A stretch of 64,000 nucleotides of DNA from Desulfobacteraceae bacterium (GTDB lineage: Bacteria > Desulfobacterota > Desulfobacteria > Desulfobacterales > Desulfosalsimonadaceae). This document shows positions 23,101 through 56,664 of the stretch, one piece after another. A program made the translations under genes and the position numbers. Where the stretch lies: positions 1-64,000 of the forward strand of contig JABZFM010000022.1 of the NCBI GenBank assembly GCA_014237465.1, in the 5' to 3' direction. The notes beneath the pieces were generated by a model. That model was not told the origin of the DNA and made no database searches. It was given only the letters and a program-made list of their open reading frames with translations. The first letter of the stretch is position 1; each line of letters opens with the position of its first letter.

Positions 23101-26050
23101 CTTCCAGTTCTCTGGCGTCAAAACGGTTGAGTAATTCCAGTCCCAGTCGGCCGAATCGATGACCTGTTTCAATGTCGCCGACATGTCCGCAGAGTATGAT
23201 GCCAAAACCGCTGTAAGCGATGGCTGAATTCGAAAAATTGCCGTATTGAATGGACAATTTCACCTGCTGACACACAAGAATGACGAACCAGTCCCTCGAC
23301 AGCTGGTAGGAAGCCCCGAATATCGATCCCATAATTTTCATGGCCGCCAGTTTGGAGGGGTCGGTCATCTCCGGCAGGTCAGCGAGATCCTCGACATTTG
23401 TTCCGGATAAATCAGCAATGGTTTCTTCAAGGATCTGGTGAATATCGTCTATGGTCGGCTGCGTCGGAAGGTCCACCCCGATTTTTTTGAGAATTTCCCG
23501 GGTCATGCCTATGGCTTCTATACGACGGTCTTCTGATATTAAAGACAGAATTCTGGTTTGATATATTTCCACGCGGTCTAAAACCGTCCGGGCATTTTGC
23601 ATTACAACGTCAAAGAGCCTTTGTGTCTCCGTAAATTTTCCGCAAAGCCTTGCTGCTTCGGCACATTCCACGTGCAGTTTCAATGTCAGGTTATATCGCC
23701 GCTGCCAGCTGTTCTCGTCTAAGAGCTGTAATCCGATAGTATAATGGCTGAGAGCCGGTTCAAAAGCGGCAAGCGTTTTGGCTTTGTTGCCGGCAACAAG
23801 GTTCAGTTCTGCGGTTTCATCGCGCTCCTGCAGGTCGCAAATCAGGTCTGCCGCCATATTCAAATGATGGATCATGTCAAAGATGTTTTCTTCATAAAGA
23901 TGGGGGGCGATATTTTCAAACAGGAGTCCTCCGATTTTCAGGTGGACCGGTTTTTTGTTTTCATCCGCGATCAATGCGTAGGATGCCTGGCGTACGCGAT
24001 CGTGACGAAATTTAAAATTTTCAGCCATGGCCGGCAGGATTTCTTCGTTTGTGCTCATCACATTGTTTTTGGTGATTGTCACCACCAGGTCTTCACGGAT
24101 GGCCGGGAGCAGATGCCTGATAATTTCCGAATCGGAAAAACCGGTGATGGTTCGTAAGCTTTTTAAGTCAAAATTACTGCCGATACAGGCCGCCATCATC
24201 ATGACGGTTTGTGTGTCTGCCGGCATGATTTCCAGGCGGCGTAAAAGCAGTTCCACCACGTTATCCGTAATGTCTAAGGCCCGGATGTTCGGGAGATTCC
24301 ACTCCCAGCAACCTTGCTCGGCATTAAAATTAAGCAGCTGCTCCTGGTACAGCATGATCAAAAACTGGTTAACAAAAAACGGATTGCCGCCGGTTTTGCC
24401 AACCACCAGTTCCGCCAGGGGGCTGACCGGCCGCTTTCCGCTTTGCAGTGTGTCGGCGATTAGTCGAATAATATCAGTCAGGTTTAACGGGTTTAAGTGG
24501 ATCCGGGAAAAATCGCAATTTTCCTGTTCCAGGTTTTTTAAGGTCGCAAATAGTGGATGGGCGCTGGAGACTTCGTTGTCTCGATAAGAACCAATTAAAA
24601 ACAGGTGCTGAATCCTTGCTTCTGTCATCACGCCTTCAATCAGTTTGAGCGTGGCGGCATCCACCCATTGCAGGTCATCTAAGAAAATGACCAGCGGGTG
24701 TTCCGGGGCACAGAATACGCGGACAAAATCCATCATCACGCGATTAAACCGGTTCCGGGTTTCAACAGCATCCATTTTTTTAACCGGCGGCTGGGGGCCG
24801 ATCACCAGTTCCATGTCCGGAATCACATCAATAATGATTTGACCGTATACGCCCAGCGCAGACAACAGTCTTACCTTCCAGTGGCGAAGGTTTTCCTCGC
24901 TTTCGGCCAGCAGTTGTTTGACCAGTTCCTGAAACGCAAGCACCAGGGCGCTGTAAGGAACATTTTGATGAAACGGGTCGAATTTGCCGACAATGAAATA
25001 GCCCTTTTCCCGGGTGAGGGGTTTATGGATTTCCTGAACCAGGGAGGTTTTGCCAACCCCGGGGTTCCCCGAAATAACGGCCATATGAATACTTCCCTGG
25101 CTCGTGTTTTTAAATATCTCCATCAGTTTTTCGATTTCCTGGTTCCGGCCGTAAATTTTCTGGGAAATCCGGAGTTTTTCAGGATAGTCTTCCTCTGCCA
25201 GAGGAAATGGTTCAATTTGACCGGTGGATTCATATTGCTGATAACAGAGTTTAAGGTCTTTGATTAATCCCTGCCCGCTCAGGTAGCGATCCTCTGCGTT
25301 TTTGGAAAGCAGTTTCATGATAATTTCTGCGACAACCACCGGTATTGCAGGATCGGTTTTATCGGGAGCCTCGGGCTGCTTTGCCAGGTGTTGGTGAACC
25401 AGTTCCAGAGGGTCCGTGCTTTCAAAGGGTAAATGGCCGGTCAGTATCTGATAAAACAACACACCCAGAGAATAAAAATCCGTCCGATAATCTATGTCCC
25501 GGTTCATTCGGCCGGTCTGTTCCGGGGACATATACGCCAGAGAGCCTTCCATGGCGGGAAGGTTGATACTTTTCGGCTTTTCCCTGGGCAGCACAGTGGC
25601 AAAACGAAAATCAACCATCCATATCTGATGGGTGAGCTTGTTGATAAACATATTTTCCGGGCAGATATCCTTGTGAATAATATTTTGCCGGTGCAGGTTG
25701 CTCAAAACCTTGGCCGCTGAAATGGCGATTTTCAGAAAATCGGAAACCTCTGTTTTTTGAGTGCTCATATAATCTGAAAGCAGCAGGCCGTCGATGGGGT
25801 CGGTAATAATGGCCAGGCCGTTGGGGTAGGATTCGATGGCATGGGTGTCTGGAATGCCGGTGCCTTTTAAGTTCTTGAGCAGTTCATATTCGTGCTGTAA
25901 CCGGATTCGGTCGGTTGATGCCTCAGGACCTGAAAAATGGGTTTTAATCATCACAGGCAGGGAATTTTCCTCTCTCTGGGCATCAAAATAAAATCTTCGG
26001 TTTCCCCTGCAAATTTCCTTTGTAATTTTATACCCGGGTAAAGCGATCAT
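20183..26050 (-). CDS. Kinase-AAA-GAF-PAS sigma-54-dependent activator
   Basis: A 1955-residue fusion regulator. Residues ~1-270 form a Ser/Thr-kinase-like domain with the catalytic loop HKDICPENM and a kinase APE-like motif, YMSPEQTG. The glycine-rich loop is poor and DFG reads DFR, so activity may be low or absent. Residues ~290-600 hold an AAA ATPase (SGNPGVGKTSL; VIFLDDLQWVD), followed by a long helical TPR-like region as in PknK/MalT-type sensors. A GAF domain (~1320-1475) and a PAS domain (~1490-1610) precede the AAA+ sigma-54 contact domain (~1640-1880; GESGTGKE, GAFTGA, LFLDELGE). A FIS-type helix-turn-helix ends the protein (NRKNAAAHTGIPLRSFYRKL). It probably activates the adjacent cluster from the two -24/-12 elements. 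The signal sensed is unknown. Confidence 0.9.
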   Translation of the reverse strand: MIALPGYKITKEICRGNRRFYFDAQREENSLPVMIKTHFSGPEASTDRIRLQHEYELLKNLKGTGIPDTHAIESYPNGLAIITDPIDGLLLSDYMSTQKTEVSDFLKIAISAAKVLSNLHRQNIIHKDICPENMFINKLTHQIWMVDFRFATVLPREKPKSINLPAMEGSLAYMSPEQTGRMNRDIDYRTDFYSLGVLFYQILTGHLPFESTDPLELVHQHLAKQPEAPDKTDPAIPVVVAEIIMKLLSKNAEDRYLSGQGLIKDLKLCYQQYESTGQIEPFPLAEEDYPEKLRISQKIYGRNQEIEKLMEIFKNTSQGSIHMAVISGNPGVGKTSLVQEIHKPLTREKGYFIVGKFDPFHQNVPYSALVLAFQELVKQLLAESEENLRHWKVRLLSALGVYGQIIIDVIPDMELVIGPQPPVKKMDAVETRNRFNRVMMDFVRVFCAPEHPLVIFLDDLQWVDAATLKLIEGVMTEARIQHLFLIGSYRDNEVSSAHPLFATLKNLEQENCDFSRIHLNPLNLTDIIRLIADTLQSGKRPVSPLAELVVGKTGGNPFFVNQFLIMLYQEQLLNFNAEQGCWEWNLPNIRALDITDNVVELLLRRLEIMPADTQTVMMMAACIGSNFDLKSLRTITGFSDSEIIRHLLPAIREDLVVTITKNNVMSTNEEILPAMAENFKFRHDRVRQASYALIADENKKPVHLKIGGLLFENIAPHLYEENIFDMIHHLNMAADLICDLQERDETAELNLVAGNKAKTLAAFEPALSHYTIGLQLLDENSWQRRYNLTLKLHVECAEAARLCGKFTETQRLFDVVMQNARTVLDRVEIYQTRILSLISEDRRIEAIGMTREILKKIGVDLPTQPTIDDIHQILEETIADLSGTNVEDLADLPEMTDPSKLAAMKIMGSIFGASYQLSRDWFVILVCQQVKLSIQYGNFSNSAIAYSGFGIILCGHVGDIETGHRFGRLGLELLNRFDARELEAEVYTIFYAGINHWKFHLRESLEPLFSAHHTGLETGDYEFATYCTFFFSYHSFLCGNPLEDIERQMARFTDDARHHKQMHSDIYFSIFHQAVLNLLEKNEKPCSLAGGVFDETTMEPMLYNANDTLALFYMHFCKTLLCYLFETYPEAIKHAGLAEKLAGRVPGNVVVPVCSFYDSLSRLAVYETLTDEEQNQTMARVETSQFKMKKWMEHAPANYAHKFFLVEAEKARVLKQNDDAVKHYDRAICLARENGYVNEEALANELAAKFWLKRDRHEFAGIFMQKAYACYSLWGASRKIEHLLEKYHPLLSKAWTDSTIVANNASLNKPRQIDWNQQGLDLATLMKASQAISSEILLDNLLRTMMKIVIENAGAEKGFLLLNSKDRLRVAASGVADAKEVFVQSFDSATEKDEKLSLSVVNYAARTRECVVLKNAVTEGRFSNDPYIRKQRPKSVLCIPIIYQSTLTGVIYLENRLTPDVFSPDRIEVLKLLTSQIAISIENTMLFEKHRTAEEKYRSIFENAVEGIFLVTTEGQFVSANPSMAQILGYDSPEELCRQITDIEHQLYTFPEQRDKTLRMLRKNETVADFEVSFRRKDGNHIWVSLSARSIYDENGKLFLIEGFIIDISERKSATDALREREENLRKENIRLRSDIKDRFRFGRIIGKSPAMQEVYELILKAATTDASVIIYGESGTGKELVAREIHEMGDRKNGNFVPVNCGALPENLLESEFFGYKKGAFTGANADKKGFLDLAHAGTLFLDELGEISLNFQVKLLRALEDGSYTPLGSQKTQTSDARVVAATNRDLQEAIRKGLMREDFFYRVHIIPIHLPPLRDRAEDIPLLIEHFLKTHSQHAQAPSIPGNMLEALLSHDWPGNVRELQNVLHRYYTLGKIDLLTPSPKTSVMPKDHLPDPENTDPGQDHQSIMENTEKNIIIKALELHQWNRKNAAAHTGIPLRSFYRKLKQYNIIQGG

Positions 26051-47088: not shown

Positions 47089-48336
47089 TTAAGTTTGATA
47101 TAGAAATCCCCGGTCCATGGGGTAGGTCGTTGTATTCCCCTTTGAAAAAGTGATTTGATAGAGCCGCAATATAGCATTATCGGTTCTGAAACATTCCGCG
47201 CAGAAATTTAGATATGCTTTCCAGGTTCTGCAGAACCGTTCATTGAACTGATCGCAGTTGCAGCGATGGAGGGCTTCCCAGTTTTGTTCAAAATTTTTCG
47301 CCCAGGCATCCAGAGTCAGTGAATAATGGCGGCGGAGATTTTCAATGTCTAAAATTTCAAGGCCGTATTCCGCCATGATGTCGATGGTTTCACTGAGTCC
47401 CGGTAAATACCCCCCGGGAAATATATGTTTACGGATAAAAAATTCCGTGTCCATGGGCCGGTCATGGGCAATAAAGTGCAGCAGGCCAATCCCGCCCTCT
47501 TTCAGGCACCCGGCCATGGATCGGATCCAGTCTCGGAGCTGTCCTTTCCCGGCATGTTCAAAGACTCCGAGGGACGCATATTTGTCAAAGGTCCCCGTCA
47601 CCTGACGAAAATCCTTTTCCTGGATGGAAATTTTATCTTCAAGTCCTTTTTCACGGGCTTTTTTCGCCAGCCATTGGTTCTGGTCAATGGTGGGGCTCAC
47701 GTTTGTTCCAATCACACCGTATTTTTCGCAGGCATGAAATAAAAGGGCCCCCCAGCCGCCGCCCACGTCTATGAGTTTTTCACCAGGCTGTAACATCAGT
47801 TTCCGGCACACATGGTCCAGCTTGTTTTTTTGCGCGTCTGCAAGTGACCGGGTGCCTTTTTTCCAGTATGCACAGGTATAGGTCATGGAAGGATCCAGGT
47901 ATTGCCAGAATATTTCATTTCCCCGATTATAATGATGGAGCGCGTTTTTGACCGCCCGGGATATTTTTCTGTTTCCGAAGCGCAGTTCATGCCAGAAATT
48001 CCGAAACCGGATGATCAGGTGCGGAATATGGGGCTGCCGTATTTTTTCAGACAGGGACGGTCCAGCTTCGGCATTTGCCTTAATCAAAAGTTTCAGGTCG
48101 CCTTCAATATCCACTGCCTGGCTGATATAGGATTCAAGCAGCCCCCATCCGTGATTGATGATGGAATTGAGCTGGGACCATCTGGATTTATAATGAATTT
48201 TCAGTTCCGGCGGATCGGATGAGTTGCGGTAAGTTGAGCCGTCAAAAAAAATAACCTCGATTGGAATCGAAGACCTGCCGATGGATGCGGCATAGATCCT
48301 TCGGAGTAACCAGGACATGGTTAGTTCCATTCTCAT
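47089..48336 (-). CDS. cfa: Cyclopropane-fatty-acyl-phospholipid synthase
   Basis: A 415-residue SAM-dependent methyltransferase of the CFA synthase family, which adds a methylene bridge to unsaturated acyl chains of membrane lipids. The SAM-binding block is LIDVGGGWGALLFHACEKYG. Family signatures SLGVFEHAGKGQL, FIRKHIFPGGYLPGLSE and LRRHYSLTLDAWAKNFE follow. The N-terminal ~130-residue lipid-binding domain is present. The longer open frame adds 30 residues that do not fit the family, so 48336 is preferred, though the ribosome-binding site is weak. It may also be one of the broader CFA-like methylases. Confidence 0.85.
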   Translation of the reverse strand: MRMELTMSWLLRRIYAASIGRSSIPIEVIFFDGSTYRNSSDPPELKIHYKSRWSQLNSIINHGWGLLESYISQAVDIEGDLKLLIKANAEAGPSLSEKIRQPHIPHLIIRFRNFWHELRFGNRKISRAVKNALHHYNRGNEIFWQYLDPSMTYTCAYWKKGTRSLADAQKNKLDHVCRKLMLQPGEKLIDVGGGWGALLFHACEKYGVIGTNVSPTIDQNQWLAKKAREKGLEDKISIQEKDFRQVTGTFDKYASLGVFEHAGKGQLRDWIRSMAGCLKEGGIGLLHFIAHDRPMDTEFFIRKHIFPGGYLPGLSETIDIMAEYGLEILDIENLRRHYSLTLDAWAKNFEQNWEALHRCNCDQFNERFCRTWKAYLNFCAECFRTDNAILRLYQITFSKGNTTTYPMDRGFLYQT

Positions 48337-54237: not shown

Positions 54238-54421
54238 ACTTTATCAATAAATACGTGGTCCGCCCGGCCGAAAAAAAGCGTATGAAAAATGTGTTTTGTC
54301 CTGAAGGTAAACCTACCGAAATATCACTGTAATGATATCTCAAGTTTTTCAGGATAGAGATTTGTTCAGTGCAACAAATTCTAAAACAGACGCCTGAAAA
54401 ATAGTTTTGTCAAAATTGCTA

Positions 54422-54450
54422 TTGACTTCGGGTTTTTGGGCTGCTACTTT
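54422..54450 (+). promoter_or_regulatory. Candidate sigma-70 promoter of the homocysteine operon
   Basis: TTGACT (54422-54427) and TACTTT (54445-54450) with a 17-base spacer lie about 30 bases upstream of the leader peptide's ribosome-binding site (GGAG at 54469-54472). The -35 match is good and the -10 is weak. Confidence 0.4.
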
Positions 54451-54484
54451 GTGGTATAAATTAATTTTGGAGCATATTACTAAA

Positions 54485-54559
54485 ATGAACGATCAATTCA
54501 ACACACACACCGGTTTCATGATGTCCATGATGCACACCCGAGGTGCACCCATGGATTGA
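54485..54559 (+). CDS. Methionine-rich leader peptide
   Basis: A 24-codon frame with GGAG 12 bases upstream encodes MNDQFNTHTGFMMSMMHTRG and then APMD. Six of the 24 residues are Met; the codon run ATG ATG TCC ATG ATG (54518-54532) is the control region. Its 3' half overlaps a hairpin (54524-54535 with 54543-54555). The hairpin's 3' strand (54547-54554, ACCCATGG) can instead pair with CCGTGGGT (54588-54595) in the terminator stem. Stalling at Met codons would mask the first strand and favour the antiterminator; reading to the stop would mask the second and allow termination. The next genes make homocysteine, the methionine precursor. Confidence 0.78.
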   Translation: MNDQFNTHTGFMMSMMHTRGAPMD

Positions 54560-54583
54560 TCGTTATCATATTCAATCAACAGC

Positions 54584-54622
54584 AAAGCCGTGGGTCTTTA
54601 ATGAAGATTCACGGCTTTTTTT
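54584..54622 (+). terminator. Intrinsic terminator (attenuator) of the homocysteine leader
   Basis: AAAGCCGTGGGTCTT pairs with AAGATTCACGGCTTT (two G-U pairs) around a TAATG-type loop and is followed by seven T residues. It lies 25 bases after the leader peptide stop and about 190 bases before the DUF39 gene, the expected location for an attenuator. Confidence 0.8.
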
Positions 54623-54728
54623 ATTTAAATAACAAATTTTACGTAAATGAAACTGCCGGATATGATGAAGACAATAAAACGAACAGAAATCAAAACCATC
54701 GACTGGATTAAGTTATGGATAATGCCGG

Positions 54729-54745
54729 GGCTCCGAAATGGAGCC
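54729..54745 (+). promoter_or_regulatory. Small hairpin between attenuator and DUF39 gene
   Basis: GGCTCC and GGAGCC form a perfect six-base stem with a GAAAT loop, extended by flanking C/G pairs. No T-run follows it. It lies 67 bases before the DUF39 start and its role, if any, is unclear. Confidence 0.35.
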
Positions 54746-54811
54746 GGGTTTAGTAAAGCAAAGCTTAATATTATAACAATTGATTAATGATTTTAAAAAA
54801 GAGGAATATCC

Positions 54812-56005
54812 ATGACTAAAACCATTGAAGAAATTAACGCAAAAATTCGGTCCGGAAAGGCGGTGGTGCTGACCGCCGAGGAAATCATCGATGTAGTCCG
54901 GGAAAAAGGGGTCAAGCAGACTGCCGAAGAAGTTGATGTAGTGACCACCGGCACATTCAGCCCCATGTGTTCATCCGGGGCTTTTTTTAATATCAAACAG
55001 CTTAAGGAAAAAATTAAAATCGGCGGCGGATTTGCCACCTTAAACGGCGTGGCGGCGTATGCCGGTCTGGCCGCGGCAGATATCTATTTGGGGGTCACTG
55101 CGTTGCCGGACGGTGATCCGCGCAACAGTAACGGCCGTCCCGGAAAATTTCGGTACGGGGGTGCCCATGTAATTGAAGATCTGGTATCTGGAAAAAAAGT
55201 GACGCTCAAGGCCGGCGGGCACGGTACGGACTGCTATCCGCTCAAGGAGCGCGAGCAGTTGATCGGCTTTGACGACATGAATGACGCCTTTTTGTTCAAT
55301 CCGAGAAACTGTTATCAGAACTATAATGTTGCGGTGAACCTTTCGGATAAACCGATTTATACGTATATGGGAAAACTCAAACCCAAACTCGGGAACGCCA
55401 ATTACTGCAGCGCCGGCCAGTTGTCGCCCCTTTTTAATGATCCGTATTACCGGACCATCGGCATCGGCACCCGGGTGTTTTTCTGCGGTGCCCAGGGGTA
55501 TGTCGCCTGGCACGGCACCCAGCACAATCCGGCTGTAAAACGCCTGGAAAACGGGACCCCGGAAACCCCGGCCGGAACCGTGGCCCTGATCGGGGATTTA
55601 AAGCAGATGAACCCTAAGTGGCTCAAGGCGGTATCTTTTACCGGTTATGGCGTGACGCTGAGTGTCGCAGTCGGGGTTCCGATCCCGATTATTGACGAGG
55701 AAATGGTCCGCTATGTATCTGTTCCAGATGATGCGCTCACAGCGCCGGTGGTGGATTACAGCACATTTTATCCTACCGGCGAGGGAGAGGGGCGCCTTTG
55801 CGATGTCACATACGCGGAACTAAAATCCGGAAGCATTACCGTCAAGGGAAAAAAGGTTCCGACCGGATCATTTTCCAGTTATGCCAGGGCCCGGGAGGTT
55901 GCCGGCCACCTGAAGGATCTGATTCAAAAAGGGAATTTTTTATTAACTCAGGCCCAGGCCCCGCTTCCGGGCGCAAGCCCGCATTCTCACGAAAAATTTA
56001 TTTAG
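54812..56005 (+). CDS. Homocysteine biosynthesis protein (DUF39)
   Basis: A 397-residue DUF39-family protein, the bacterial counterpart of the methanogen MA1821 protein needed for homocysteine formation from aspartate semialdehyde and a sulfide source. It begins with the family opening AVVLTAEEIIDVVREKG and contains TGTFSPMCSSGAFFN and GGHGTDCYPLKER, each with a conserved Cys. CBS domains of the archaeal form are absent. GAGGA lies seven bases before the ATG. A Met-codon-rich leader and terminator precede it, and its usual partner (NIL-ferredoxin) follows after a 249 bp gap containing a palindrome. It is expected to act in the cytoplasm and to be repressed when methionine is plentiful. Confidence 0.87.
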   Translation: MTKTIEEINAKIRSGKAVVLTAEEIIDVVREKGVKQTAEEVDVVTTGTFSPMCSSGAFFNIKQLKEKIKIGGGFATLNGVAAYAGLAAADIYLGVTALPDGDPRNSNGRPGKFRYGGAHVIEDLVSGKKVTLKAGGHGTDCYPLKEREQLIGFDDMNDAFLFNPRNCYQNYNVAVNLSDKPIYTYMGKLKPKLGNANYCSAGQLSPLFNDPYYRTIGIGTRVFFCGAQGYVAWHGTQHNPAVKRLENGTPETPAGTVALIGDLKQMNPKWLKAVSFTGYGVTLSVAVGVPIPIIDEEMVRYVSVPDDALTAPVVDYSTFYPTGEGEGRLCDVTYAELKSGSITVKGKKVPTGSFSSYARAREVAGHLKDLIQKGNFLLTQAQAPLPGASPHSHEKFI

Positions 56006-56121: not shown

Positions 56122-56214
56122 AAGCCTGATTCGTCCATCTGCTGCGTTATAAGCGGTTCGCGGTAAACTACACAGCGTCACCCCTTATGCCTTACATATG
56201 AACGAATCAGGCTT
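56122..56214. repeat. Inverted repeat between the homocysteine genes
   Basis: AAGCCTGATTCGT (56122-56134) pairs perfectly with ACGAATCAGGCTT (56202-56214) around a 67-base interior. A shorter TCGCCCTTCGGGC hairpin lies just to its left. The element separates the DUF39 and NIL-ferredoxin genes, which otherwise look like one operon. Confidence 0.65.
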
Positions 56215-56253: not shown

Positions 56254-56664
56254 ATGAAACAAATGAAAAAAGTTTTGAATTTTTCTGAAAATATTGCGGA
56301 AGAACCGATTATTTATCATCTGATTGCGGATTACGGGGTCCGGGTGAATATTTTGCGCGCCAGTATCGACCCCGGAAAACATGGCCGGATGTTTGTGGAG
56401 CTTGCCGGTGAAGACAGCCAGTTGTCACGCGGACTCAATTATCTTGAACGGACCGGTGTGCAGGTGGAGCCGCTGGCGCAGGAAATTCAGCATTTAACCG
56501 ACCGTTGCACCAGCTGCACATCATGTGTGCCGCATTGCCCGACACAGGCTTTGGATGTGGACAGGCAGTCCTGGGAAGTCTCCTTTAACCCGGAAAAGTG
56601 TATTGTCTGTCTCTCTTGTCTGGATGTGTGTATCTACAAGGCAATGACTTTAACAGGATCTTGA
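56254..56664 (+). CDS. NIL-domain dicluster ferredoxin of homocysteine synthesis
   Basis: A 136-residue protein with an N-terminal NIL domain (~residues 5-75, IAEEPIIYHLIADYGVRVNI and PGKHGRMFVELAGED) and a C-terminal dicluster ferredoxin (CTSCTSCVPHCPTQAL; CIVCLSCLDVCIYKAM). The same domain order as methanogen MA1822, the partner of MA1821, indicates it supplies electrons or sulfur for homocysteine synthesis. The start at 56254 is chosen from the GGGGG seven bases upstream. A longer frame to 56215 extends into the repeat. Confidence 0.85.
   Translation: MKQMKKVLNFSENIAEEPIIYHLIADYGVRVNILRASIDPGKHGRMFVELAGEDSQLSRGLNYLERTGVQVEPLAQEIQHLTDRCTSCTSCVPHCPTQALDVDRQSWEVSFNPEKCIVCLSCLDVCIYKAMTLTGS

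Follow-up and report, generated by a model that had tools for sequence, protein, structure and literature searches.

A Probable Methionine-Codon Attenuator Ahead of a DUF39/NIL-Ferredoxin Homocysteine Operon and Its Tyr/Phe and Trp Siblings in Desulfobacterota

Introduction

Ribosome-mediated (classical) transcription attenuators are known for the trp, his, thr, leu, ilv and phe operons. They combine a short leader containing repeated codons for the end product with a protector hairpin, an antiterminator and an intrinsic terminator, and they are followed by a biosynthetic operon. T-boxes and SAM riboswitches bind tRNA or SAM directly and have no translated leader.

Methionine genes are controlled by repressors, riboswitches and T-boxes; for Proteobacteria, repressors and riboswitches are described, and the terms 'attenuat' and 'leader peptide' are absent from the main text of the paper concerned (PMC4239095). 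SAM riboswitches occur in Geobacter and Desulfuromonas, according to the accessible part of PMC545781. Cys leaders have been reported for Actinobacteria, with no methionine element in the sections available (PMC1262725), and no Met leader was found in the accessible part of PMC2965389. No ribosome-stalling methionine attenuator was seen in the papers searched, among them few subscription papers; in search listings, some of which comprised the best 10–20 matches, neither such an element nor attenuators in Desulfo-species, the Tyr/Phe and Trp leaders below included, were recognised. The role of the DUF39 protein and its NIL-domain ferredoxin partner in homocysteine synthesis, as well as the rescue by methionine of Desulfovibrio vulgaris Miyazaki mutants in the corresponding genes, is documented in the accessible part of PMC5764234.

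Here we consider a leader situated ahead of this gene pair in a 64,000-nucleotide stretch of DNA from a member of Desulfobacteraceae, hereafter the window. It has all the parts of the classical plan and differs from the known examples in that the repeated codon is Met, the operon is DUF39/NIL-ferredoxin and the leader is closed by a long-range stem. Like the Cys-codon leaders of mycobacterial cys operons, it places codons for a sulfur amino acid ahead of genes that make one; the mycobacterial leaders showed no conserved terminator hairpin in the available part of the report (PMC1262725), whereas both terminator and antiterminator are conserved here. The methionine T-boxes and SAM riboswitches described in the accessible parts of PMC4239095 and PMC545781 are likewise RNA control of methionine genes, and the present leader is distinguished from them by its probably translated frame and by the fact that no Rfam family reached threshold in the window.

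The Leader and Its Structures in the Window

A preliminary description of this region had presented it as a methionine attenuator and listed its parts: a 24-codon leader with the cluster ATG ATG TCC ATG ATG, a GGAG upstream of it, a hairpin, an alternative pairing of the hairpin's 3' side with the terminator stem, a closing pairing and a terminator ending in seven T's. All of them were recovered (Table 1), the hairpin as two consecutive helices and the GGAG at a rather long distance from the start. Both downstream genes named there were also confirmed by their protein families.

Table 1. Positions of the features of the leader region and operon in the window
Feature	Position	Strand	Remarks
Promoter-like site	54422–54450	+	TTGACT 54422–54427, 17 nt spacer, TACTTT 54445–54450; read from sequence
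GGAG, candidate ribosome binding site	54469–54472	+	12 nt ahead of start, rather far
Leader peptide ORF	54485–54559	+	MNDQFNTHTGFMMSMMHTRGAPMD; 24 codons; read from sequence
Long-range closing stem	5' arm 54488–54497, partner 54555–54564	+	10/10 pairs
Control codons	54518–54532	+	ATG ATG TCC ATG ATG; read from sequence
Protector (1:2) hairpin	54524–54555	+	54524–54529/54550–54555 and 54531–54535/54543–54547
Antiterminator strand	54547–54554	+	ACCCATGG; partner CCGTGGGT, 54588–54595, 8/8 pairs
Intrinsic terminator	54584–54622	+	16-pair stem 54584–54618 and seven T 54616–54622
Second element	54713–54745	+	TTATGGATAATG...GGCTCC-loop-GGAGCC; inside short frame 54647–54787 (...LWIMPGL...)
DUF39/HcyBio, homocysteine biosynthesis	54812–56005	+	PF01837, E 4.9e-145
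NIL-domain ferredoxin, DUF39 partner	56254–56664	+	PF09383 and 4Fe-4S families

The leader frame, whose stop codon occupies 54557–54559, contains five internal Met codons, the highest number among the 496 ATG frames of 15–35 codons on both strands of the 64-kb window. When the intergenic region was shuffled with dinucleotides preserved, some ATG frame of this length with at least five internal Met codons appeared in 22 of 20,000 shuffles. For the leader RNA, a folding energy of -49.9 kcal/mol (z -5.1) was computed, which 0 of 200 shuffles equalled; the terminator hairpin gives z -7.5 and the protector hairpin -13.3 kcal/mol (z -3.1). Segment 54588–54595 is common to the antiterminator and the terminator, so that these structures are mutually exclusive. 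The terminator precedes the structural genes, DUF39 and NIL-ferredoxin, and both of these help to make the very amino acid that is coded in the Met cluster.

Judging from the promoter-like site, transcription would start near 54457. A consensus promoter scan of the window did not list this site, because TACTTT matches TATAAT at 3 of 6 positions and the scanner required at least 4. Thirteen of the 14 Met leaders described below are preceded by TTGAC and L117 by TTGAT, which fits a start before the terminator. By eye, a second hexamer of the TAC/TGC type was seen in 12 of the 14, with a spacing of 15 nt in L236, and was absent in L129 and L131.

Proposed Mechanism

In our opinion, the DUF39/NIL-ferredoxin homocysteine operon is controlled here by a ribosome-mediated transcription attenuator with charged tRNA-Met as the sensed species; we would give this reading a probability of roughly 0.83. 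It agrees with the preliminary description and is supported by the anatomy, the conservation of the Met leader, covarying stems and sibling attenuators, and it is from the anatomy, the conservation and the Tyr/Phe and Trp siblings that control of the operon is inferred.

In the untranslated leader, the closing stem would probably shut the antiterminator strand away. With ample methionine, the ribosome would reach the stop codon and cover the antiterminator strand, and the terminator would form. With methionine in short supply, the ribosome would pause at the control codons, where it would mask the protector hairpin on its 5' side and leave the antiterminator strand to pair with the 5' arm of the terminator; RNA polymerase would then read on into the operon, the step from stalling to read-through being presumed. 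Methionine has a peculiarity in this respect: when it is scarce, initiation on the leader is slowed as well, and a Met-codon sensor could be blunted in this way.

Occurrence of Met Leaders in Related Genomes

A total of 14 Met leaders were read in 14 genomes belonging to four families. Blast of 36 genomes of the family gave matches in eight, and the leader was present in the window's genome and in four others (L114, L115, L116 and L117). Three matches were rejected, namely L118, a terminator remnant, and L119 and L120, which lie inside apparent coding sequence. The contig of L114 stops after the leader at an apparent mobile element; locus L033, with a 94% identical DUF39 and a like end sequence, may be the other side of this break.

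The first covariance model was built on four leaders, with L117 left out, and recovered L117 at 68.7 bits. Over 291 genomes of the order, this model gave matches at E ≤ 0.1 in 56. Inspection of the matches showed Met leaders in G186, G224, G272, G120 and G260 (family f22), G071 (f71) and G002 (f3), in addition to G000 and G221. When a 12-leader model was applied to the 24 genomes of f22, eight matched and seven of them carried a Met leader, G687 and G690 being newly added. G186 also contains a second, decayed copy of the leader (L239, about 1483–1620), which has lost its terminator, is situated away from the DUF39 operon and was not counted among the 14.

Phylum-wide, the 12-leader model matched at E ≤ 0.01 in 134 of 395 genomes; the matches inspected were L182–L210, the window's own, and L231, L232 and L233 in the same genome, and no Met leader was present among the 29 loci L182–L210. 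Absences in scans of more than 40 genomes are soft, because stricter filters were applied there and few candidates were scored per genome. Bit score alone was rejected as proof of a leader, the leaderless terminator L187 having reached 46.2 bits.

The DUF39 Subtype Associated with the Leader

The DUF39 gene lies 3' of the leader in 12 of the 14 cases. The exceptions are L114, at the contig end, and L127, where DUF39 is gone and by eye the 3' part of the NIL-ferredoxin gene is left, so that the operon is broken. Among the matches listed for the order, DUF39 genes fall into a subtype with at least 71% identity to the window protein and others with at most 60%. The leader was found at 8 of 10 subtype loci among the matches listed for the 291 order genomes; these ten comprise nine listed with identity and that of G272, known from L125, and short subtype fragments may be missing from them. 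At one of the other two, G037 (L157), there is no leader, and in G033 the contig begins about 90 bases ahead of the subtype gene, too short a distance to tell. Locus L036 (75% identity) is also leaderless and has another gene, by eye of the MOSC-domain type, directly upstream.

The idea that DUF39 genes generally have a Met leader found no support. In a scan of 112 DUF39 loci (up to 700 nt upstream, less at contig ends; frames of 10–45 codons with at least three internal Met codons), a GAPMD/GTPMD-type leader was shown only by L002, L034, L035 and L056, the other matches being scattered frames without such a leader, and the leader was not found at the ordinary DUF39 loci examined. The attenuator reading would have suffered had relatives with the gene pair shown neither Met clustering nor covarying stems; it came through this check, as both recur with this DUF39 subtype, and its limits are the ordinary DUF39 loci examined, G037 and L036.

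Two side observations concern the same genes. Contig C41 of the window's genome carries another DUF39 gene, of the ordinary kind (24610–25755, minus strand), at which no Met leader was seen, and also, by eye, a second NIL-ferredoxin-like gene (L231, from about 1058). Between DUF39 and the NIL-ferredoxin gene of the window, a 13-base inverted repeat, AAGCCTGATTCGT / ACGAATCAGGCTT, was noticed by eye at 56122–56134 and 56202–56214.

Conservation of the Frame and the Stems

All 14 leaders have 3–5 Met codons placed 8–14 codons ahead of the stop, a length of 24–30 codons and the same kind of ending; in 12 leaders pooled, Met accounts for 63 of the 296 residues after the start. Within the genus, the peptides retain a Met core and end in GAPMD/G or GTPMD, and much of the remainder is variable. 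Over the 14 leaders, the RGAPMD/G ending and the Met pair core are strongly conserved, while the N-terminal half and the distances between the Met residues vary. The retention of frame, start and ending favours translation of the leader. GGAG was found in 5 of 5 genus leaders, and only 7 of the 14 have a Shine–Dalgarno-like four-mer in the 20 nt ahead of the start.

Pairing in the four genus leaders alone was no better than in shuffles (211 of 500). With 12 leaders, 88.7% of the cells are paired versus 84.1% in shuffles, none of 500 reaching this value, and sliding the structures along the alignment gave 22–43%. Changes on both sides of a pair were observed in 10 of 34 pairs (5.5 in shuffles, as high in 1 of 500) and in 19 cells (7.5 in shuffles, reached in 0 of 500); this count leans toward the structure because the 12-leader alignment was fitted to the same structure. 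By helix, such changes affect 3 of 10 pairs in the closing stem, one in the protector hairpin and 6 of 15 pairs in the terminator. Antiterminator pairing is 8/8 in eight of the 12 leaders, 7/8 in L123, L125 and L131, and 6/8 in L127.

The behaviour of the switch was modelled at equilibrium on the still incomplete transcript, with the ribosome footprint assumed to be 29 bases; a measure of arm sequestration was discarded, as it also counted other pairings. With a ribosome at the best Met codon of the cluster, the antiterminator probability is at least 0.64 in 12 of the 14 leaders, and stalling clearly raises it over the ribosome-free value in 9 of 14; for the four cluster codons of the window, it amounts to 0.64, 0.17, 0.00 and 0.00. 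A stalled ribosome leaves it close to zero in L123 and L127. In L128, L129 and L237, it equals 1.00 with or without a ribosome, and therefore the protector and closing stems do little there. A ribosome at the stop codon gives 0.00 in all 14, as the assumed footprint dictates. According to this model, most of the leaders would be able to switch. The results for L123 and L127, for L128, L129 and L237 and for the four cluster codons of the window, together with the Shine–Dalgarno-like sequence in 7 of 14 leaders and the leaderless G037 and L036, count against the attenuator reading.

Sibling Attenuators with Other Codons

Leaders of the same general build with other codons were encountered in the searches. 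Among 13 loci read from the 291-genome search, some of them by eye, there were eight Met leaders (one being the L117 locus again), two aromatic and three Trp leaders. The 29 loci from the 395-genome search comprised 19 aromatic, three Trp (L201 by eye) and seven leaderless ones. Sixteen further loci gave five aromatic leaders (L137, L138, L142, L143 and L146, the last being the place of L189 again), two Trp leaders (L140 and L147) and nine without a clear leader. The genome of the window itself has a Tyr/Phe-rich leader, MNHNTGRNFEFYFWYFSYFYFYAKGLPVR, with a terminator (L232; G000 contig C35, about 47645–47763, minus strand), followed by genes for ADH synthase, 3-dehydroquinate synthase II and prephenate dehydratase.

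Tyr/Phe leaders precede genes for shikimate kinase, ADH synthase and DAHP synthase, and Trp leaders precede trpE. By best family, 20 sibling downstream genes included shikimate kinase (8, below curated cut-offs), ADH synthase (3, over cut-off), DAHP synthase (2, over cut-off), anthranilate synthase (4, of which 3 over cut-off) and a distant metallo-beta-lactamase-fold family (3, far below cut-off); downstream genes outside these 20 were named by eye. The metallo-beta-lactamase-fold protein follows Tyr/Phe leaders at L184, L195 and L198 (family search) and at L199 and L203 (by eye), and in view of the leader upstream it may belong to aromatic amino acid metabolism. A Phe-rich frame ahead of a phenylacetate-CoA ligase-like gene was also seen by eye at L238 and L240 (around 1400–1640).

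By eye, many of the Tyr/Phe and Trp leaders of Desulfobacterota have an RGLPMD-like ending and, as in the Met leader, GCCGTGGG as the terminator arm, with an antiterminator strand resembling GCCCATGG and a closing stem of the ATCAATCC/GGATTGAT type. They differ from the Met leader in the sensor codons and the downstream pathway. Across the siblings, codon and pathway change jointly; this speaks for the codon as the indicator of the amino acid that is sensed and is the best evidence for methionine in this role. The likeness by eye of ending, antiterminator strand, terminator and closing stem suggests that the siblings share descent; bit score fails to separate them from plain terminators.

These comparisons bear on a different way in which the leader peptide could act. 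The strong conservation of its RGAPMD/G ending and Met pair core would suit a TnaC-like arrest of the nascent chain on methionine, SAM or homocysteine in place of sensing uncharged tRNA-Met. We consider this unlikely, since the antiterminator strand GCCCATGG accounts for the peptide ending, other amino acids stand in siblings whose ending is similar, and the peptide is variable in its first half and in the spacing of its Met residues.

The Second Conserved Element

Between the terminator and DUF39 there is another conserved sequence composed of YTATGGATAATG, three variable bases and a GGCTCC/GGAGCC hairpin, of which a compensated version exists in L117. It occurs at 12 of the 14 leader loci, being absent in L114 (contig end) and L127, and also in L036. 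All 12 sequences keep the LWIM frame open across the element; the sameness of the motif in the 12 aligned elements is partly built in, because they were chosen by it. A model of the element matched at E ≤ 0.05 in 50 of the 291 order genomes, where nine matches score 50–61 bits, all of them before this DUF39 subtype, and the next best reaches 29.1 bits. In G037, the element is kept and the leader is missing. Its presence suggests that there is other control besides the attenuator.

If the terminator were constitutive and the Met-rich frame incidental, another promoter would drive the operon and the second element would control it. The persistence of the element in leaderless G037, the restriction of its strong matches to this DUF39 subtype and the half of the leaders that have no Shine–Dalgarno-like sequence all point in that direction. 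The frame, Met cluster, antiterminator strand and TTGAC are, however, kept over four families with covarying stems, which makes such an arrangement quite improbable.

A metabolite riboswitch for SAM or a related compound using the same terminator is very improbable: SAM riboswitches do stand ahead of methionine genes in Geobacter and Desulfuromonas (accessible part of PMC545781), but no Rfam family reached threshold in the window and the conserved letters fall in the reading frame and the stems.

The Rfam search covered SAM riboswitches, T-boxes and other families, and in 54380–54830 it yielded five unrelated chance matches at E ≤ 5. None of the 36 genomes of the family gave a SAM-I riboswitch (RF00162) match at E ≤ 0.001, and there was none in the window. 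None of seven sibling loci matched an Rfam family at the leader, and a search of ten relatives and siblings gave a single match, away from the leader, at L204; this is a cobalamin riboswitch (RF00174, 85.7 bits) at 1687–1852, and the aromatic leader of that locus lies on the other strand.

Returning to the attenuator reading, its widest form is that Desulfobacterota possess one homologous attenuator chassis in which the sensor codons (Tyr/Phe, Trp or Met) were swapped and the closing stem, antiterminator strand and terminator were kept. Met specificity would then have arisen by recoding, and the second element, TATGGATAATG with its hairpin, would add control on the Met version. We put this forward tentatively, at nearly even odds.

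Conclusions

Summarizing the data on this locus and its relatives, it may be suggested that the Met leader represents a conserved attenuator in which a known mechanism has a new amino acid specificity, namely methionine. A natural Met attenuator makes the conflict between sensing and initiation testable. The sibling Tyr/Phe and Trp attenuators suggest a route to retargeting such a switch by codon change, and the DUF39 pathway of sulfate reducers gains a candidate regulator.
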